Part shown: piece by piece, positions 5,648-46,787 of the stretch | How the letters are laid out: every line of letters begins with the position of its first letter | Numbering within the stretch: position 1 is the stretch's first letter | Program-made: the position numbers and the translations under genes | Notes under the pieces: model-generated | What the model was told of the DNA's origin: nothing | The model's database searches: none | What the model saw: only the letters and a program-made list of their open reading frames with translations | Origin: Spirulina subsalsa PCC 9445 | GTDB lineage: Bacteria; Cyanobacteriota; Cyanobacteriia; Cyanobacteriales; Spirulinaceae | NCBI RefSeq assembly: GCF_000314005.1 | Contig: NZ_JH980292.1 | Coordinates: 2,373,725-2,437,724 of the forward strand | Direction of reading: 5' to 3' | DNA: 64,000 nt

Positions 5648-8600
5648 GTGTTGACTTCACTGATGACCTTGTTTAGCCCTCATGGAGACAAGCTGTTATA
5701 TATTCCCCATGGTCATTGCTTCCTCTGGCAACGATCTTTAGTCAGTCTTCATGTGGTGAGTGATGGCTTAATTGCCGTTGCTTATTTCTCCATTCCCACC
5801 ATGTTAATTTACTTTATTCACAAACGGCGGGATATTGCCTTTTCGAGTGTCTTCGCCATGTTTGGGGCATTTATTATCCTCTGTGGGGTGGGGCATTTAT
5901 TAGACATTTGGACTCTTTGGCATCCTGACTATTGGTTATCGGGGATAGAACGGGCTATTACTGCCCTTGTTTCCTGTTATACTGCCCTGCGTTTGGTGGA
6001 ATTACTGCCCCAATTTTTAGCCCTGCGGACTCCGGAACAACTAGAACAAGTTAATCAGGAATTAGAGCGACAAATTGCCCAACGTCAGAGGACTGAAGCC
6101 ACCCTCAAAACCGTTGTTTTCAGTACAGCAACCGCGATGGGAGAGGATTTTTTCTGGGCGCTAGCGGAAAATTTAGCCAAAGCGCTGAAGGTTCCCTATG
6201 TACTGATTTCTGAATGGGCAGATGAGCAACATAAAAACCTTGAAAGTATTGCCTTTTGGGCGATTGATCATGCTGTAACCAACTTTAACTATCCCATTGC
6301 AGATACACCTTGTGAACAAGTTTTACAACGGCAAGAAACCTGCTACTATCCTCAAGGCGTAGGGGAAATTTTTGCTCAAAGTCCTTTGATTCAAGAGATT
6401 GAGGCAGAGGCTTATTTTGGTCTGCCATTGTTTGATAGTGACCATCAAGTAATCGGCAATTTGGCTATTGTCAGCACAGACCTTTTAGGGCTAGATGAAA
6501 ACGAACAAGCTATTGTACAGATATTTGCCAATCGTGCGGCGACAGAACTACAACGCAAATGGGCGGAAGAGGAAAAGAACAAAGCTTATGAACAGTTGGA
6601 ATTGCGGGTACAAGAACGAACCGCAGAACTGGTGAAAGCGAATGCGGTGTTAGAAGTAGAAGTCCAAGAACGTCGCAGTGCAGAGAAAGCGATTCGCTTA
6701 ATTGCCCAACGGGAAAAAGCGATTAACTGGATTACCCTGCGAATGCGCCAGAGTTTGGACTTAAACGCCATTCTGGCAACCACAACCGCAGAACTGCGAG
6801 AGGCTTTAGAATGCGATCGCGTCCTCATTTATCGCTTCAATCCTGACTGGAGTGGAACCGTCCTTTGTGAGTCCGTCGCCTCCGGTTGGAAGTCTATCCA
6901 AGATCCGGAACTCAACCTCCCCCAACTCACCCAAACCGTCACCGGAAATCCCGATTGTGGGGCTACCCAGTTTGATTTTACCAACCTCACCCTAGAAGAT
7001 ACCTATTTACAAAGCCAAGCAGGGGGCAAATATCGCCAACGAGATACTTTCTGTTGTGTACCCGATATCTATCAAGCGGGATTCAATGATTGCTATTTGG
7101 AACTACTAGAAACGATTCAAGCCCGTTCCTATATCATATCTCCTATATTTTGTCAACAAGAACTCTGGGGATTAGTCGCCGTTTATGAAAACAAATCTCC
7201 TCGGGATTGGCAAAGGGCAGAAGAGCAAATTGTTACCCAAATTAGTAATAAACTAGGTATCACTGTCCATCAGGTTCAACTGTTCAGCCAAACGCAAAAA
7301 CAAGCCACTGAACTCAAAGAAGCTAAAGAAGCAGCTGAACAAGCTAACCGGGCGAAGAGTCAGTTTTTAGCCAATATGAGCCATGAACTGCGAACGCCCT
7401 TGAACGCTATTTTAGGCTTTACCCAACTGATGCAGCAAGAAGCCAAGTTTCAGGCAGGGGAATGCCGCCTTAGCCCTACTTATCAAGAATATGTACGCAT
7501 CATTAATCAAAGCGGAGAACATTTACTCCAACTGATCAATGATGTCTTAGAAATGTCCAAAATTGAAGCAGGACGGATCACCTTAGAAACGTCCGAGTTT
7601 AAACTGCATGAATTAATTTACAATCTAGAGTCTATGTTGCGACTCAAAGCCCATTCTAAAGGGCTTTCTTTTCATTTCGATATTGCCCCTAATGTTCCAA
7701 ACTTGGTACAAGGAGATGCGAACAAACTCCGTCAAGTATTGTTAAATTTATTAGGCAACGCCCTTAAATTTACCCAAGCGGGTGGCATTAGTTTACGAGT
7801 TTTCTTAGCGAACATCCCGGAAACAGCAACAGATCCTGAACAGCCTATGAACGTTGAGTTTCGCGTTGAGGATACTGGTCCAGGGATTGCCCCCGAGGAG
7901 TTAAATCACCTCTTCCAAGCCTTTTCCCAAACTCGCACCGGGAAACAGTCTCAAGAAGGGACAGGCTTAGGACTGCGCATTTCTCAGCAATTTGTGCAGT
8001 TGATGGGGGGGGAGATTACCGTGGAAAGTGTGGTGGGACAAGGCAGTTGTTTTGCCTTCTCTATTGCGGTGATTCCCTGCCCGGAAGCAACGACAACCTC
8101 CTCCACCTCCCAATTTACCCACGCCCTCCGTTTAGCCCCTAATCAGCCCTCTTACCGCTTGCTGGTGGTGGAAGATCATCCGGTGAATCGCTTACTCCTG
8201 ACTACCGTCCTCCTCAACTTGGGTTTTGAGGTGAAAGAGGCGGAAAATGGTCAGGATGCGATCGCCCTTTGGCAAACTTGGCACCCACATCTGATCTTTA
8301 TGGATATGTATATGCCAGAGTTAAATGGGTATGAAACCACTCGTTTTATTAAACAACAGCCCTCTCCTACTCTCCCGTTTATCGTGGCCATTACAGCCAG
8401 CGCCTTTGCAGAACAGCAACAGGAATGTTTACAAGCCGGGTGTGATAGTTTTGTGGGGAAACCCTTCCGTCGGGAAGAAATTCTAGAAGTTTTAGCGCAT
8501 CATTTAGGGGTGCAATATTCCTACCGAAATATTGACCCAAAACCCTTTACACCAGCTTCAGAAGCAACACTACCATCTCAGGGCGTCGATATTCAAGTGA

Positions 8601-8795: not shown

Positions 8796-10733
8796 ATGAT
8801 TGAAACTGTGCCAAACCCAGAGAAATTAGCGGATATCTTGATTGTGGATGATAAGGTAGAAAATATTCGCTTTTTGTCAGAGTTTTTAGCTACTAAAAAT
8901 TATCAAGTCCGAAAAGCAATTAATGGAAAATCAGCATTAACGGCTATTCGCTTTAATCCTCCTGATTTAGTTTTATTGGATATTAATATGCCAGAAATGG
9001 GAGGCTATGAGGTTTGTGAGACGTTAAAAAAAGACCCTCAATATTGTTCTATCCCCATTATTTTCTTAAGTGCAGGCAATAGTACAGAAGATAAAATTAA
9101 AGCCTTTGCTGTTGGGGGAGTTGATTATATTACTAAACCCTTTCAACTGGATGAAGTGCTAGCACGAGTCCAGTCTCAACTGATGATTCAAGGCCTCCAG
9201 AAGAATCTGGAAGATCGTAATGCAGCACTAGAATCTATCATTCTCGATTTACGCAAAACCCAAGAACGCCTAGAACAATCCGAACGAGAAAATCAGGCAT
9301 TGTTTAACGCCATGAATGAATTAGTAGTCATTTTAGACCGCCAAGGCAATTGTCAAAAAGTGGCTACCCCTAACAGCTATTTAATGGGGTTAAAAGAGGT
9401 GGCTCAAAACGGCAAAAATATTGTTGATATTTTACCCCCCTCCTTCCCTTGGTTAGAAACCTTAGAAAATGGCTTAAAAAATCAATCGAGTTGTGATGTA
9501 GAATGTGCTTTAATTCGCAACCAAATTAAACTAAATTTATGTGTTTCCTTTTCTCCCATTTCAACAGAAAAAGCCCTCTGTGTCATTCGAGATATTAGTG
9601 AACAAAAGAAACGGGAAGAAGCCTTGCACTTAATCGTTGAAGGAACAGCCGCTAAAACCGGAACTGAATTTTTCCAATCCTGTGTTCGTTACCTTGCTCA
9701 AATGCTGAAAGTGCGCTATGCCTTTATTACTAAATGTCTCGATGGAGAAAAAAACCGTGTGCAAACCTTAGCCTTTTGGCATCATGACAATTTTGGGGAA
9801 AATTTGGAGTATGACCTAGCCGGAACTCCCTGTCAAGAAGTCGTTCAACAAGGAAAATCCAACTGTTACCCCGATCATCTCATTGCTTGTTTTCCCGACG
9901 ATGAGGACTTAGCCACCCTTGAAGCGAGAAGTTATCAAGGTCTGCCATTAATTAATTCAATGGGGGAGGTTATTGGTCATCTGGCGGTATTAGATACTTA
10001 CCCCATGCAGGATGATCCTATTCGGGAGTTAGTCTTGCGGATTTTTGCCGCCAGAGCAGGAGCAGAACTAGAACGGCAGCTTACAGATGCGGCGTTAAAG
10101 GAGAGTCAAGAACAATCGGAACAGTTGTTATTAAATATCCTACCCAGTGCGATCGCCCAACAATTGAAAACCAATACAGGGGTAATCGCCCAATCCTACA
10201 ACGATGTGACCATTCTCTTTGCAGATTTAGTGGGTTTTACTGAGCTTGCTTGTCAAATGAAGCCCATCGAATTAGTAAATTTACTGAATGAACTTTTTTC
10301 GAGTTTCGACAGCCTCAGTGAACAATATGGCCTAGAGAAAATTAAGACCATTGGGGATGCTTATATGGTAGTCGGGGGACTTCCGACACCGCGACCCGAT
10401 CACGCCCAGGCGGTAGCTGAGATGGCGTTAGAGATGCAAAAGGCGATCGCCCAGATTTCCACCCCCTACGAATCCCTACAAATCCGTATCGGCATCAATA
10501 GCGGCCCCGTCGTTGCCGGAGTTATTGGCGTGAAAAAATTTATTTATGACCTGTGGGGAGATGCGGTTAATATTGCCTCCCGCATGGAGTCTTCTGGAGA
10601 ACCGGGTAAAATACAAGTCACAGACACCGTTTATGAACGCTTAAAACATCAATATCATTTTGAACAACGGGGAACCGTGGAAGTCAAAGGACGAGGAGAA
10701 ATGCTCACCTATTGGCTCAACAGTAAATCGTAA
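8796..10733 (+). CDS. response-regulator adenylate cyclase (REC-PAS-GAF-class III cyclase)
   Basis: 645 residues, soluble. Order: receiver with phospho-acceptor D62 (LLDINMPEMGG), coiled coil, PAS-like segment (~165-270), GAF (~280-430), S-helix-like linker, and a class III cyclase (~470-640). The cyclase has both metal aspartates (FADLVGF, D477; IGDAYM, D521), adenine-selecting K517 and D585 (YDLWG), and the transition-state N592/R596 (VNIASRM). This makes ATP the likely substrate and cAMP the product. Its GAF resembles the first GAF of the upstream kinase, sharing a TPC-x2-V segment and similar flanks. The receiver and the 13-bp spacing suggest the kinase phosphorylates it; that link is inference. 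Confidence 0.9.
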   Translation: MIETVPNPEKLADILIVDDKVENIRFLSEFLATKNYQVRKAINGKSALTAIRFNPPDLVLLDINMPEMGGYEVCETLKKDPQYCSIPIIFLSAGNSTEDKIKAFAVGGVDYITKPFQLDEVLARVQSQLMIQGLQKNLEDRNAALESIILDLRKTQERLEQSERENQALFNAMNELVVILDRQGNCQKVATPNSYLMGLKEVAQNGKNIVDILPPSFPWLETLENGLKNQSSCDVECALIRNQIKLNLCVSFSPISTEKALCVIRDISEQKKREEALHLIVEGTAAKTGTEFFQSCVRYLAQMLKVRYAFITKCLDGEKNRVQTLAFWHHDNFGENLEYDLAGTPCQEVVQQGKSNCYPDHLIACFPDDEDLATLEARSYQGLPLINSMGEVIGHLAVLDTYPMQDDPIRELVLRIFAARAGAELERQLTDAALKESQEQSEQLLLNILPSAIAQQLKTNTGVIAQSYNDVTILFADLVGFTELACQMKPIELVNLLNELFSSFDSLSEQYGLEKIKTIGDAYMVVGGLPTPRPDHAQAVAEMALEMQKAIAQISTPYESLQIRIGINSGPVVAGVIGVKKFIYDLWGDAVNIASRMESSGEPGKIQVTDTVYERLKHQYHFEQRGTVEVKGRGEMLTYWLNSKS

Positions 10734-13970: not shown

Positions 13971-14600
13971 TTACAACAGGGCTTGATCGAAAAATTTGGG
14001 CTGGTGAATGACTAAGTGGCGATCGCGATTAAAACAGATTTGCCCTTCTTTTTGCAGTTTGCCCATGAGTCGCGTAATGGTGACGCGGGTAGTCCCCAGA
14101 GCATTGGCCATGTTTTGATGGGTTAAACGAATGGGTAGGGTAATCCCTTCAGGGGTGGTTTCTCCCAGTTCGTCTTTAAGCAGTTTGAGGAAATAGTAAA
14201 GACGTTCTTCTACCCGTTTTTGTCCGGCAATGGCTAATAAAGCCTCACTTTGGCGGATGCGATGGGTTAATTGCTTAAAGACTAATTGGGCAAGGTGGGG
14301 GGATTGCTCAAGTTCCGACAAGAAAAACCAGCGTAAATAGACATCGGATAAAGCCCGCGCTTCACAGACTTGGAGACGACTGAGGGATTGACCAAAAAAA
14401 CCGTTGGGTTGCACCCAGCCTAACATGACTTCCTCGCCACTCATTTGGGTGGCGCTGAGTTGGACATAACCCCGGTAGACCTGCCATAAACCTTGATTGT
14501 TTAGGATAATGCGATCGCCTCGATGATGGAGATGTAGCCGACGCTCTTCGGGGGAAATAATGTGAGGAGATTCGGAACGGGTGGATTGGACTAAATACAT
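13971..14600 (-). CDS. Crp/Fnr-family transcriptional regulator
   Basis: 209 residues. The N-terminal half is a shortened cyclic-nucleotide-binding-like barrel; the helix-turn-helix is near the C-terminus (LTHQNMANALGTTRVTITRLMGKLQKEG). The phosphate-binding cassette of cAMP receptors (FGELAL-type) is replaced by FFGQSL, so cAMP binding is doubtful. The recognition helix (TTRVTITRLMG) is NtcA-like, but the remainder does not match NtcA. It probably binds a TGT/GTA-type palindrome. It is divergent from nothing and lies downstream of the uracil permease with a 149-bp gap. Targets cannot be told from the sequence. Confidence 0.85.
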   Translation of the reverse strand: MYLVQSTRSESPHIISPEERRLHLHHRGDRIILNNQGLWQVYRGYVQLSATQMSGEEVMLGWVQPNGFFGQSLSRLQVCEARALSDVYLRWFFLSELEQSPHLAQLVFKQLTHRIRQSEALLAIAGQKRVEERLYYFLKLLKDELGETTPEGITLPIRLTHQNMANALGTTRVTITRLMGKLQKEGQICFNRDRHLVIHQPKFFDQALL

Positions 14601-16915: not shown

Positions 16916-19900
16916 TCAATTTTCCATGATCAATTCCCCCATCTGACCACGGCTGACACGTTGGAGATAAAACTGGACTAAACCATCCTCTGGATTAATC
17001 TCTGCAATGTCTTGTAACAAAGATTCTGCTTCCGTCAAATGGCCTTGATAGAACAAAACAACGGCTTGTTCAAACTGGGTTTTGGTTTGTTTCTTCAAGT
17101 TACGCTGGGGGGGATCATCCCCATTAAACACCTCAAACACAGCGACCGGGGCATTTTTCCCTTTCACCCGCACCCGATCAACAAAACGATAATCATATTG
17201 ACCAATATCCGTCAATTGACTAAAGACTGTCCCACTGATCAAAATACTGGCGTGATAGAGTTTGGTGAGTCCCTCCAAACGAGAGGCTAAATTAACGGCA
17301 TCGGCGATTACCGTGCTTTCCATCCGTTGCTTTTCCCCAATTGTCCCTAACATCAATGTCCCGGTATGGACACCGACACCGATAGTAATGGGGGGGTATC
17401 CGCGATCGCACTGTTCTTGATTAAATACCTTCACTCGTCCCTGTAAGGCGATCGCACCCTGCACCGCATCATTCACCGACTGGGTAAACAGTGCCATAAT
17501 TGCATCCCCAATATACTTATCAATAAACCCATTGTTATCCCGAATTGCTGGACTCACTAGACTCAAATAACGGTTAATAAAGTTAAAATTCTCCTCGGGA
17601 GACATCCCCTCAGAAAGGGTCGTAAAGGAACGAATATCCGTAAACAAAATACTCATTTCTTTTTGAATATGATCCCCTAATTTTACATCTATAATGCTTT
17701 CATACCCCAAAAAATGTAAGAAGTCATGGGGAACAAAACGACCATAAGCTGCCGTAATTTTGGCTAACTTAATATGGGTTTTAATCCGGGCGAGTAACTC
17801 ATTTTTAGAAAAGGGTTTAGTCAAATAATCATTAGCACCTGCCCCAAATCCTTCCACCAAATCCGTTACTTGATTTTTGGCTGTTAACATCACGATCGGT
17901 AACTCACTAGCAGAAAACTTTTCTCGTATCTTTTGACTGACTTCATATCCCGTCATACGCGGCATCATCACATCCAATAACATTAAATCCGGCACAAAGC
18001 CATTTTCAATAATTCTTAAAGCCTCTAAACCATCCGTTGCTTGAGTAATCGAGTAACTTTGCAAGGAAAGATTATTTTTTAAAACCTGTAAATTAACTGG
18101 CTCATCATCAACAATTAAAATTTTTAGTTCTTCCTCCATTTCTTCTCTTTCATTGGTCGTGATAGATTGAATTTCAGAAACTAATAAGGACAGTTCAGAG
18201 GCCGTAACTTCTGATGATTCATTTTCCGTCAACTTAGATAAAATATTTCCCTGAGTTTTGGAAAAATTTTCACCACTGGAAGACAGTTTTTGATCCAGCG
18301 CAATAGGTAAAGTAAAGGTGAACTTTGATCCCACATTGACTTGAGAAGTAACCGTAATTTTACCCCCATGTAATTCGACTAACTGTTGCGTCACTGCTAA
18401 CCCCAAACCCGTCCCCCCATAAGCCCGCGCTGTTGAACCATCCCCCTGTTCAAAGGCCTCAAAAATGCGCTCAACTTTATCCGTAGGAATACCAATCCCA
18501 GTATCAGAAATCGTAATCGCTAAACAAGAATCTGGCTGAATTAAATCAGCTAAATAGTCTTGATACTCAATGGCAATTGCTTCATCCGTCGTTAATACTT
18601 TTGCCGAAATACAGACCTCCCCTTTTTTAGTAAACTTAATAGCATTGCCGATTAAGTTATATAAAATCTGCTGTAATCGGTTCTCATCAGCCGCCGCTAA
18701 AGGCAAGTCATCTGTAATCTTATTTTGTAACTCAAGGGGCTTGCCTTGCACCAAAGGACGGGATAAATTCAAGACCATTTGAGCAATTGATTTAAGATTC
18801 ACCGACCTAACTTGTAACTCAAGGCGATGATGGCGTAACTTAGAAAAATCTAACAAATCATTAACTAAATTAGACAACCGTTGACCACTGGCTGAAATCA
18901 TCGCTAAATTGGTTTTAGTTTCCTCGGGTAACTCTCCCGTTGCCCCATCAATAAGGGATTCTGCCAAGCCAATAATTCCATTTAAAGGGGTGCGTAACTC
19001 ATGGGATGTATTGGCTAAAAATTCATCTTTTAAACGATTTAATTGTTGTAATTCTGTGTTCTTTTCTTCCAGGACATGAAACGATTCTTGCAGTTGATGC
19101 GCCATCCGATTAAAAGCGGCGGCCAATACCCCTAATTCATCAGTACGATCTAACTCTACCGTTGGGCTAAAATCTCCCTCCGAAAGACTCGAAGCCGCTT
19201 GTTTTAAGTCTAAAATCGGTTGAGTAATCCAACGAGTGGTAATAATGCCCAAAATGACCGCAACGATTAACGCCCCCAAAGAGAGTAAAATTGTGGTGCG
19301 TCGATTGGCATTAATTTCCGCCATAAAATCGGATTCTGGTACTACTACCACAATAATCCAATTAATTCCCCGAGGATCAGAAAAGGGGACGACTTGGATA
19401 TATTGGGTTTCTTGGTTTAAGGTAAAATCCAGATTTTGACTAGCTTTGATATAGCGAAGATTGCCAAAGTATTGGCTTAAAAATTCACTGGTTTTCTGGG
19501 TAACTAAATCTTGGCTTGCTTTGGCATCAAGACGTTGTGGATTTTGTTGTTCATCAATCAAAAAAGGCAATTCCTCTGTAGAAGTGGCTACTAACTCTCC
19601 CGAGGTTTCTAGGATAAAGGTTTTTCCCGATGGGGTAAGGGTTAAACTTCGTAAAAAATCACTAATATCCGCGAGGACTAAATCTGCCCCTAAAACCCCT
19701 TTTAATTCCCCTTCTGGGTTGAAATAAGGACGATTGGCACTAATGGTTAGTTTTGGCTCGGAATAATAGGCATAAATTTCACTCCAGCGCGATTGTCCGG
19801 TACTACGAGGAACTGTATACCAAGGTCGCTTTCTGGGGTCATAACTAGGGGTAATTTTAACTAATTCTTGTCGGTTTCCTTGTTCATCTGCTAGGTAAGT

Positions 19901-20353
19901 GTAGCCATCCCTGTTGGTGTTTTCGTCGGTCACTTCTACGCGAAAAACGCCGTCCTCCCAGCGTTCAATGCCGATATATTCCCCTTGTTCATTGCCGAAA
20001 TAAATATAACTAATCTGGTCAAACTTCTGCATTTGTCGCCAAAAATGCAGTTGAAGCCCTGTTAAGTCGTTAACTTCTAATAAACCCAGATCCAAAATAT
20101 CTTGATTCAGGTGATTAATGGTGTGGGGAAGTTCTAAATAATGGGTTAAGGTTTGGGCAATTTGACCACTAATTTGATTACGCAGTTGATCGGCTAAACT
20201 GGTGACAGCACTTTGTCCGTTGCGATAGGACAACCAGCCAATTAAGCCCACCGTACCAAAAATTTGGACGGTGAAGGGGACAATCAAGATCACTCGTAGG
20301 GGAATGCGACCTAGGAGGTGAGTCAGCCAACGAACGGATAACTTAACTGACAT
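16916..20353 (-). CDS. cyaC: CyaC-like Cache-HAMP-kinase-receiver-adenylate cyclase
   Basis: 1145 residues. Order: membrane helix (~18-40), large periplasmic double-Cache region (~45-335), second helix (~345-368), HAMP (WITQPILDLKQAASSLSEGDF), coiled coil, HisKA with H451 (SHELRTP), HATPase (GGTGLGLAVTQ), receiver with D794 (LLDVMMPRMTG), class III cyclase (~870-1055) and a short TPR-like tail. Cyclase residues: FTDIRSF and YIGDAIM supply metal aspartates, K before IGDA and T in ESTV select adenine, and NLASR supplies the transition-state pair; VIADAVN has A where G is usual. The layout resembles cyanobacterial CyaC (Anabaena, Arthrospira). An extracellular small molecule is the likely input, cAMP the output. 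Confidence 0.9.
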   Translation of the reverse strand: MSVKLSVRWLTHLLGRIPLRVILIVPFTVQIFGTVGLIGWLSYRNGQSAVTSLADQLRNQISGQIAQTLTHYLELPHTINHLNQDILDLGLLEVNDLTGLQLHFWRQMQKFDQISYIYFGNEQGEYIGIERWEDGVFRVEVTDENTNRDGYTYLADEQGNRQELVKITPSYDPRKRPWYTVPRSTGQSRWSEIYAYYSEPKLTISANRPYFNPEGELKGVLGADLVLADISDFLRSLTLTPSGKTFILETSGELVATSTEELPFLIDEQQNPQRLDAKASQDLVTQKTSEFLSQYFGNLRYIKASQNLDFTLNQETQYIQVVPFSDPRGINWIIVVVVPESDFMAEINANRRTTILLSLGALIVAVILGIITTRWITQPILDLKQAASSLSEGDFSPTVELDRTDELGVLAAAFNRMAHQLQESFHVLEEKNTELQQLNRLKDEFLANTSHELRTPLNGIIGLAESLIDGATGELPEETKTNLAMISASGQRLSNLVNDLLDFSKLRHHRLELQVRSVNLKSIAQMVLNLSRPLVQGKPLELQNKITDDLPLAAADENRLQQILYNLIGNAIKFTKKGEVCISAKVLTTDEAIAIEYQDYLADLIQPDSCLAITISDTGIGIPTDKVERIFEAFEQGDGSTARAYGGTGLGLAVTQQLVELHGGKITVTSQVNVGSKFTFTLPIALDQKLSSSGENFSKTQGNILSKLTENESSEVTASELSLLVSEIQSITTNEREEMEEELKILIVDDEPVNLQVLKNNLSLQSYSITQATDGLEALRIIENGFVPDLMLLDVMMPRMTGYEVSQKIREKFSASELPIVMLTAKNQVTDLVEGFGAGANDYLTKPFSKNELLARIKTHIKLAKITAAYGRFVPHDFLHFLGYESIIDVKLGDHIQKEMSILFTDIRSFTTLSEGMSPEENFNFINRYLSLVSPAIRDNNGFIDKYIGDAIMALFTQSVNDAVQGAIALQGRVKVFNQEQCDRGYPPITIGVGVHTGTLMLGTIGEKQRMESTVIADAVNLASRLEGLTKLYHASILISGTVFSQLTDIGQYDYRFVDRVRVKGKNAPVAVFEVFNGDDPPQRNLKKQTKTQFEQAVVLFYQGHLTEAESLLQDIAEINPEDGLVQFYLQRVSRGQMGELIMEN

Positions 20354-24841: not shown

Positions 24842-25001
24842 GGCTTGCTGAATAAGTCCGAGAGTTGGGGAATCGGGAGTCGGGAGTCGGGAGTCGGGAG
24901 TCGGGAATAGGCAATTGTGCCAGTTTTAGATGATCTGTTCCCTGTTAAGAGTTCCCTGTTCCCTTGTTGAGCCTAGCATAGGCGTGTTATTCAGCAGACC
25001 C
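24841..25001. mobile_element. MITE, copy 2 (TA-flanked)
   Basis: 161 bp, flanked by TA at 24839-24840 and 25002-25003. Left end GGGCTTGCTGAATAA, right end TTATTCAGCAGACCC. It is nearly identical to copy 1, in the same orientation, including the GGGAGTC array. It immediately follows lnt; the left TA is part of the lnt stop codon. The following 25004-25232 holds a little octamer repeat (CTCCCCTG) and a possible TTGACA box near 25153. Confidence 0.87.
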
Positions 25002-25232
25002 TAGGTAATAGGGAATAATTCTCCCCTGCTCCCCTGCTCCCCGTTCCCCAACAAGCCCGAGGGAATAGTGACACAGATCGCCTAAAACCCTAATCTAGAT
25101 CGCAGAAATCCCCAAACCTGCATCACTCCTGACGTTGATCAAGTTTACAAACCTTGACAGAAGCATATCACTGGAGAAACCGGGAAAAAAAGAGATAGTA
25201 GGAACATAGCAAACCAAGACCTCCTAAAAACA

Positions 25233-25433
25233 ATGTTTCCCCAACTTCAACTTATCCCCGGTGCCATCTCTGAAATCCTCGCCGCTAGTGCAGAAACCAA
25301 AACTTTAACATTAGGCGATCGCTACGGCCTCCTCGCCGCCGTCACTAACGAAGAACTCGACGAAGAAGAAAGACGCGCCGTAGACCGCCTCCTGAGAGCC
25401 TACCAACGCGGACGAATTCACCTCGCCGCCTAA
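25233..25433 (+). CDS. small conserved protein of unknown function
   Basis: 66 residues: MFPQLQLIPGAISEILAASAE, then a segment ending EEERRAVDRLLRAYQRGRI. Acidic-helical, no membrane segment. It resembles a small protein seen in many cyanobacteria with a DRYGLLAA core. It ends before a strong terminator. Coding is supported by codon use and the intact frame in a place with no competing ORF. Function unknown. Confidence 0.65.
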   Translation: MFPQLQLIPGAISEILAASAETKTLTLGDRYGLLAAVTNEELDEEERRAVDRLLRAYQRGRIHLAA

Positions 25434-25516
25434 CCCCCCCTCTTCCTTGCTCGACACATTTTAGGAGGACAAGCAAGGTTAACTTAGTTCTGAAGTTATG
25501 AAAACATATTGCTAGT

Positions 25517-25546
25517 AAAACAAGGGATAAAACGCCCTTGTTTTTT
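25517..25546 (+). terminator. intrinsic terminator
   Basis: AAAACAAGGG-ataaaacg-CCCTTGTTTTTT, a perfect stem with six T, ~85 bp after the small protein gene. A second weak inverted repeat (CCTTGCT/AGCAAGG) lies just before it. Confidence 0.85.
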
Positions 25547-25582
25547 CTTTAGCCCTTAAATTTTCTAATTATATAAAATCCC

Positions 25583-25598
25583 TGTGATTCTTATCACA
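25583..25598. promoter_or_regulatory. CRP/SYCRP1-type palindrome TGTGA-N6-TCACA
   Basis: TGTGATTCTTATCACA is a perfect match to the TGTGA-N6-TCACA core bound by cAMP receptor proteins, including cyanobacterial SYCRP1. It is followed within 155-195 bp by a free-standing terminator, and ~290 bp by the isochorismatase-like gene. Region 25599-25752 has no open reading frame of note. Confidence 0.6.
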
Positions 25599-25752
25599 GC
25601 TTAATTCTATTTCAGGTCACAACAAAACTGTGTGTTAATTCACGCCTCAATAGAGATAGAGATCAATGTAAAACCCGATTATTTTTAGCATCATATTTAT
25701 AGAACAAGACGATAACTCCCGACAGAGTTTCAACATCATTAAGACCTCTTTA

Positions 25753-25778
25753 CCTCAGTTGACCCACTGAGGTTTTTT
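25753..25778 (+). terminator. free-standing intrinsic terminator
   Basis: CCTCAGT-tgaccc-ACTGAGG followed by six T. No protein gene ends upstream after the terminator at 25517, so it probably ends a short non-coding transcript starting downstream of the CRP-type site. Confidence 0.75.
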
Positions 25779-25885
25779 ATTGGCTTGGTTGACAGTCCCC
25801 GCGAAGTAAACTCCCCCAAGGGATGGGGAATTCTCGACAATCTTGTTAAAATTTAGGGCAATTTCCACACCAACCCTGAGCCACC

Positions 25886-26923
25886 ATGCCAGAATATCCC
25901 ATCCCCTCCTTCTTCAACCCCCAAACAGTGGGCGAAGTGTGGCGCGTCCCTTACCAACAACGCGCCCTTGAAGCCCAACAGTGGGCGAAAGCCCATCAAA
26001 TCACCCCCGCTCACACCGATCAAACCCGCATTTGTTTACTAATCATTGATGCACAAAATACCTTCTGTTTACCCGATTTTGAACTATTTGTCGGAGGGGC
26101 TTCCGGTCGAGGGGCGATTGAAGATAATACCCGCCTCTCTGCCTTTATTTATCGCAATTTAGGCATCATTACCAACATTACCCCCACCTTAGACACCCAT
26201 AGCGCCATGCAGATTTTTCACCCTGTATTCTGGGTGAATCAGCAGGGGGAACACCCCACACCCGCCGCCACTCAGATCACCCCCTCAGACCTAGAACAAG
26301 GGATCTGGCAAGTCAACCCCGCCATTGCCCCCAGTCTGGGGTACAATCTCCTAGACTTAGAACGCTATGCCCGCCACTACGTCCAACAACTCACCGCCGA
26401 TGGCAAATATCCCCTCACCATTTGGCCCTATCACTCCATGTTAGGGGGCATTGGTCACGCCCTCGTTGCCGCCATTGAAGAGGCCTGTTTTTTCCACAAT
26501 ATCGCCCGCCAGAGTCAGACCCATTTTGAACTGAAAGGGGGAAATCCCCTCACGGAAAATTACTCAGTCTTACGGCCGGAAGTCCTAACGGGAGCCGACG
26601 GTCAACCTATCGCCGAGAAAAACAAGGCGTTAATGCAAAGACTACTTGAATTCGATGCCGTGATTATTGCCGGACAAGCTAAGAGTCACTGTGTCGCTTG
26701 GACGATTGATGACCTATTGACGGAAATTCAAGCCCAAGACCCGAAACTTGCTCAAAAGGTCTATTTATTGGAAGACTGTACCTCTCCCGTCGTGGTGCCG
26801 GGGGTGGTAGACTTCACCGAGGCCGCGAATCAAGCCTTTAATCGGTTTGCAGGGGCTGGGATGCACCTAGTCCAATCCACTACCCCCTTGGAGACTTGGC
26901 CGGGAATTCTCTATTTGTTTTAG
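25886..26923 (+). CDS. isochorismatase/nicotinamidase-superfamily cysteine hydrolase
   Basis: 345 residues, longer than the usual ~200. The catalytic triad of the superfamily can be placed: Asp in [10 protein letters not shown], a lysine in the central insert, and Cys in [16 protein letters not shown], followed by the late [11 protein letters not shown] strand. The extra length is a central insert (FWVNQQGE...) and an N-terminal extension. It probably hydrolyses an amide or an isochorismate-like ether, perhaps in nicotinamide salvage; the substrate is not fixed. The gene is alone, with the ATG in CCACCATGCC. Confidence 0.75.
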
Positions 26924-46713: not shown

Positions 46714-46787
46714 GGCGGGCGTAGCCAAGTGGTTAAGGCAGTGGATTGTGGTTCCACCATTCGTGGGTTCAAGTCCCATCGTTCGCC
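46714..46787 (+). tRNA. tRNA-His (anticodon GTG)
   Basis: Folds as a full cloverleaf: acceptor GCGGGCG/CGTTCGC, D-arm with GCCAAGTGGTTAAGGC, anticodon stem GTGGA/TCCAC around TTGTGGT, T-arm GTGGG-TTCAAGT-CCCAT. The extra G at 46714 opposes discriminator C73 at 46787, the identity pair unique to tRNA-His. CCA is not encoded. Followed by six T. Confidence 0.96.

Follow-up and report, generated by a model that had tools for sequence, protein, structure and literature searches.

A candidate small RNA gene in a conserved noncoding block near a CRP-type palindrome of Spirulina subsalsa

Introduction

An intergenic region of Spirulina subsalsa carries a perfect CRP-type palindrome, with an intrinsic terminator downstream of it on the plus strand. 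Does this region specify a small RNA (sRNA), and would such an RNA be controlled by cAMP and CRP? A first-pass annotation of the window, the 64,000-nt stretch of DNA analyzed here, had proposed a cAMP-regulated small RNA. The small RNA half of that proposal finds support in a sharply bounded conserved block which ends with the terminator. The cAMP-CRP half has proved weak, its basis being the site itself, and this input was overstated.

Results and discussion

The locus and its surroundings

The window belongs to a genome of 5.32 Mb in two contigs (G000), which was the reference for the comparison with S. subsalsa FACHB-351 (G001; contig C49, NZ_JAIHOM010000223.1), the sole other genome of the genus retrieved. 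The intergenic region under study (25434-25885) lies between two plus-strand ORFs, one of 66 aa upstream (25233-25433) and one of 345 aa downstream (25886-26923). A terminator-like hairpin with 10 pairs on the plus strand (25517-25544) separates the upstream gene from the rest of the region and is kept in the alignment with FACHB-351; the separate terminator annotated just upstream of the palindrome is thus present. No plus-strand ORF of at least 40 aa was found within 25434-25778, where the plus-frame translations of 25599-25751 were also checked. This agrees with the earlier statement that no ORF separates palindrome and terminator, which had passed over a 30-aa ORF on the minus strand (see below).

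The 66-aa ORF, for which a Pfam search gave no match, represents a multi-copy small-protein family that occurs in 34 of 59 genomes, with 6 copies here and 18 in genome G002. The 345-aa protein matches no Pfam family at E values up to 0.001, and we take it to be isochorismatase-like. It is present in 47 of the 59 relatives and also in a few records titled Planctomycetota, Parcubacteria, Anaerolineae, and Poribacteria. Further upstream, between a 534-aa ORF and the 66-aa ORF, short tandem-like repeats were seen by eye: GGAGTCG units at 24868-24905 and CTCCCCTG units at 25020-25050. There is one tRNA in the window, at 46715. The "two adenylate cyclases" previously assigned to the window correspond to two proteins with a class III cyclase domain (PF00211), at 8796-10733 (plus strand) and 16916-20353 (minus strand), which may make cAMP or cGMP.

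A bounded conserved block

The intergenic regions of the two strains can be aligned end to end. Within the alignment, a noncoding block at 25616-25786 (plus strand), presumed to comprise a promoter and a small RNA gene, agrees in 168 of its 171 positions, compared with 209/263 in the intergenic flanks and 1123/1239 in the adjoining coding DNA. Over ungapped columns, the individual values are 191/201 for the 66-aa coding sequence, 146/180 for 25434-25615, 63/83 for 25787-25885 (plus 25 gap columns), and 932/1038 for the 345-aa coding sequence. Only one of the 133 positions of the core (25654-25786) differs, and the 94 identical bases at 25693-25786 are the longest such run in the aligned stretch. 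Binomial figures for the conservation of the block (1e-13 against the flanks, 5e-5 against the coding DNA) are overstated, because the block edges were picked after the alignment had been seen, and the comparison is one of two genomes only. The 3' edge of the block lies 8 bases beyond the poly-T of the terminator. Noncoding DNA that is better kept than coding DNA and that ends so close to a poly-T is the pattern that an sRNA gene and its promoter would be expected to leave.

A DNA search of 59 genomes returned two carriers of the block, the two S. subsalsa strains. With a covariance model, the same two were obtained among 13 genomes of the family at E values of about 1e-34, all other matches up to E 10 being at 0.18 or above. 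When the search was extended to the order, matches at E up to 0.05 were obtained in 6 of 243 genomes. Four of these lie outside the genus, with E values from 8.4e-4 to 0.03. The match at 8.4e-4 (G092) is below the usual cut-off for a single genome, and a further one (L147) is weaker than all four. We rejected the four as chance matches: they align poorly, the terminator stem is broken or missing in three, and the remaining one (L164) matches mostly via the terminator. Among the genomes searched, the block was thus not found convincingly outside the genus Spirulina.

The terminator and the predicted RNA

The block contains an intrinsic terminator on the plus strand (25752-25778) with an 8-bp stem, a 6-nt loop, and six T. 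Its stem-loop, ACCTCAGT-TGACCC-ACTGAGGT, occupies 25752-25773 and the T run ends at 25778, so that the free-standing terminator described within 200 bp of the palindrome could be confirmed. The candidate small RNA is placed at 25698-25778 on the plus strand; transcription would start anywhere within about 25660-25700 and end at this terminator.

When folded, the 81 nt from 25699 are predicted to form a small hairpin, AACTC-CCGACA-GAGTT (25714-25729, with two outer pairs besides), followed by a single-stranded linker of 20 nt (25732-25751) ending in GACCTCTTT and then by the 8-bp terminator hairpin. Because GAGG-type ribosome sites are complementary to the linker end GACCUCUUU, this end may pair with them. 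The RNA would most likely be trans-acting, with the linker binding the ribosome-binding sites of mRNAs. Presumptive targets were sought with a sequence complementary to part of the linker region. With up to three mismatches, there were 8 sites in the window's genome and 5 in FACHB-351 (the locus itself excluded), and the reversed sequence, used as control, had 13 and 14. The plus-strand fold of 25699-25779 was matched in stability by 3 of 200 shuffled sequences and, in another set, by 12 of 500. This signal rests on the terminator: after its removal, 61 of 200 shuffles were equally stable for 25699-25752, as were 338 of 500 for 25647-25751.

No good sigma-70 promoter for the block was found on the plus strand, where the candidates are two weak boxes of the form TAN3T. 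TAGCAT at 25686-25691 (4/6) may serve as -10 box, in which case the start would fall near 25698; TATTTT at 25680-25685 is the alternative. A half-site on the minus strand near 25665-25672, TTTACATT, may be RpaB-like, as judged by eye against the RpaB motif.

The region thus has an intrinsic terminator of its own, is separated from the flanking genes, shows no coding sequence on the strand that would be transcribed, and is conserved above its surroundings in two genomes. We consider it a likely, good sRNA candidate. The locus appears to be best explained by a small RNA gene that stands free on the plus strand within 25434-25885 and is specific to this lineage, and we hold this to be reasonably probable.

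The palindrome and its possible role

If there is such an RNA, cAMP-CRP may modulate its promoter, and this is where the palindrome has to be weighed. At 25583-25598, the exact TGTGAN6TCACA that had been annotated is present as TGTGATTCTTATCACA, the sole perfect instance in the window. It also has the fuller form TGTGATN4ATCACA, shared by 3 of the 9 perfect sites of the genome. When up to one mismatch is allowed, the window has 3 sites compared to a shuffle mean of 1.31; by itself, the palindrome is only mildly unusual, because 12 of 100 shuffles also reach 3.

The conservation that had been called for among close relatives holds for the block and only in part for this site, which lies outside it. 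In FACHB-351 the palindrome reads TGTGATCCTCATCATA; it is identical at 13 of 16 positions and, with one core base lost, retains 9 of 10 core bases. Moreover, no TAN3T box occurs on the plus strand in the 60 bases downstream, as opposed to the spacing of about 22 bp described for genes activated by cyanobacterial CRP (passages of PMC2633013).

Inside the block, a degenerate CRP-like site, TGTGTGTTAATTCACG (25629-25644; 8/10), is unchanged in FACHB-351. With TAGCAT as -10 box, its center would fall at -61.5, the class I position. We treat this site as a lead only, because its quality is reached in 385 of 5000 shuffled blocks.

Two elements point in the minus direction. The promoter-like pair GTGATA-18-TATAAT (25568-25597) overlaps the palindrome, and its TATAAT is changed in FACHB-351 at 25570 and 25572. 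TAGAAT, a TAN3T box at a distance of 19 bp to the degenerate site, is also changed (25608).

CRP-type proteins and operators in the genome

The genome encodes a CRP-type protein (G000:C2:4951583) which is related to E. coli CRP chains (E 2e-17) and has the Crp-family regulator 4ev0 as its best match. Its recognition helix carries RETVTR, residues which we take to match the recognition of TGTGAN6TCACA operators. Three further HTH_Crp proteins (L165, L167, L168) have TRVTVTR or TRVTITR and are presumably readers of NtcA-type sites. The Crp-family protein encoded in the window (13971-14600, minus strand) is of this kind; it has HTH_Crp_2 and Crp matches and the helix TTRVTITR, and its Pfam list does not include a cyclic-nucleotide-binding domain. 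Since we assume TTRVTITR to be NtcA-like, this protein is not the expected reader of the palindrome.

Perfect TGTGAN6TCACA sites number 9 in the window's genome (reversed-pattern control: 4) and 10 in FACHB-351 (control: 0). With ORFs called at 100 aa or more, two of the nine (L001, L175) lie inside long ORFs and seven are intergenic. Five intergenic sites are also perfect in FACHB-351 (L003, L004, L171, L173, and L174, corresponding to L181, L185, L184, L183, and L179), near genes which we take to be those for an aminotransferase, queG, an RNase III/PEP-CTERM pair, pepP, and a pyrophosphatase. At L003/L181 the core is kept while the surroundings have diverged (67/136 identical), and at L173/L183 divergence is seen on one flank. 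The seventh intergenic site (L172) has no counterpart among the FACHB-351 loci examined. Five such operators shared in perfect form by the two strains make it probable that the CRP regulon is active.

In genes activated by cyanobacterial CRP, the -10 box is usually about 22 bp from the site, and a range of 19-31 bp has been scanned, as passages of PMC2633013 report. At all five conserved sites but L003/L181, which is without one at 19-31 bp, a TAN3T box lies at 20-24 bp in both genomes. Its presence at four of the five is only moderate evidence, because such a box occurs at 19-31 bp in either direction at 5859 of 20,000 random window positions. The spacing test is also soft as applied to the palindrome, because a TAN3T box at 19-31 bp is likewise missing from L003 and L172, two of the remaining six intergenic sites.

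If CRP controls the small RNA, activation of its promoter would come from CRP at 25583-25598, perhaps in combination with the degenerate site at 25629-25644. Such control is a special case of the small RNA gene proposed above. It draws on the perfect palindrome in its fuller form, the RETVTR protein, the placement and invariance of the degenerate site, and the five conserved sites elsewhere; the base lost from a palindrome outside the block, the absent -10 box, and the ease with which shuffling yields a degenerate site of this quality count against it. On balance we regard such control as possible and rather doubtful. Marginally more doubtful is the full circuit, in which the two sites would act jointly and a cAMP-CRP-switched sRNA, arisen within the S. 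subsalsa lineage, would convert the cAMP level into repression of mRNAs at their ribosome-binding sites, as an independently evolved CyaR-like circuit.

Alternative explanations

The block could be the leader of the 345-aa gene, with the terminator acting as a conditional attenuator. It is on the same strand, and the terminator lies 107 bases ahead of the ATG. The stretch from terminator to gene is poorly conserved, however, with its 63/83 identities and 25 gap columns, and the gene has a possible -10 box of its own, TAAAAT (25847-25852, plus strand), within a stretch, CAATCTTGTTAAAATT, that is identical in FACHB-351; both features speak against a leader. By eye, no competing antiterminator was seen, nor was the block seen ahead of the 345-aa gene at 10 loci of other genomes (700 bases each, two being the same stretch). 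We consider a leader improbable.

Alternatively, the product could be the 30-aa peptide encoded on the minus strand inside the block (25736-25647, stop included; 30 codons at genome positions 2399374-2399463). The plus-strand RNA might then be its antisense regulator, an arrangement like that of type I toxin-antitoxin pairs. Ahead of the ORF stands AAAGAGGTCTTA, which resembles a ribosome site and is paired with the end of the ORF in the minus-strand fold. For 25647-25779, that fold was matched in stability by 2 of 500 shuffles (0 of 200 in another run), and its z value of -3.85, compared with -1.29 for the plus strand, counts against the small RNA. The strains differ within the ORF only at two third codon positions (25653, 25692), with a silent change and a replacement of Met by Ile, and the two versions of the peptide are 97% identical; by chance, however, two third-position changes are expected in 1 of 9 cases. 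Conservation also runs past the ORF on both sides, the terminator stands on the plus strand, and the sequence beyond 25786 is poorly kept, so that conservation points to no minus-strand promoter there. Outside the genus, a relative of the peptide was not found with confidence: there were matches at E up to 1 in 12 of 99 genomes, all except the two S. subsalsa strains at 0.024 or above, and the best of these has internal stops. A Pfam search of 25647-25739 gave no match. The peptide thus strikes us as a very unlikely product of the locus.

Least credible of all is a divergent PsrR1 (RF02701), the light-controlled cyanobacterial sRNA: it is the best Rfam match of the region and spans model positions 1-79 of 79, but we rejected membership, as the score of 22.7 bits is below the gathering score of 42 and the search at E up to 10 also matches 12 of 14 control genomes, and the alignment, carried mostly by the terminator, has a 10-base gap in mid-model, with matches above the cut-off in 5 of 59 relatives and none in this family.

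Relation to known systems and implications

No Rfam family reaches its gathering score in the region, and the CyaR model is not among the four matches obtained up to E 5. CyaR is a CRP-dependent sRNA of enterobacteria, described in passages of PMC11795201 as pairing in trans at Shine-Dalgarno sequences, and the small RNA proposed here would share this mode of action along with the CRP input. It differs from CyaR in having no match to the Rfam model, in that its CRP input is putative, and in belonging to another phylum. PsrR1 acts at ribosome-binding regions according to parts of a review of sRNAs (PMC6202907), and resembles the candidate in a C/U-containing single strand ahead of a short terminator hairpin with a similar ACCTC stem; the middle of the PsrR1 model is absent from the candidate. 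With the SYCRP1-type regulon, as outlined in passages of PMC2633013, the locus has the identical operator TGTGAN6TCACA in common, and it differs in the -10 box that is missing downstream of 25583-25598.

A cyanobacterial sRNA controlled by CRP or cAMP was not encountered in titles and opening lines of abstracts, nor in passages of PMC5946031, PMC3516471, and PMC5924778, and the main text of the review PMC6202907 has no word starting with "CRP" or "cAMP".

If the block is transcribed, a filamentous cyanobacterium that has been little studied would gain an sRNA specific to its lineage. If the RNA is also controlled by CRP, it would join cAMP signaling to post-transcriptional control in cyanobacteria. 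The comparison further provides five CRP-type operators that are kept perfect in two Spirulina species, each of which can be tested.
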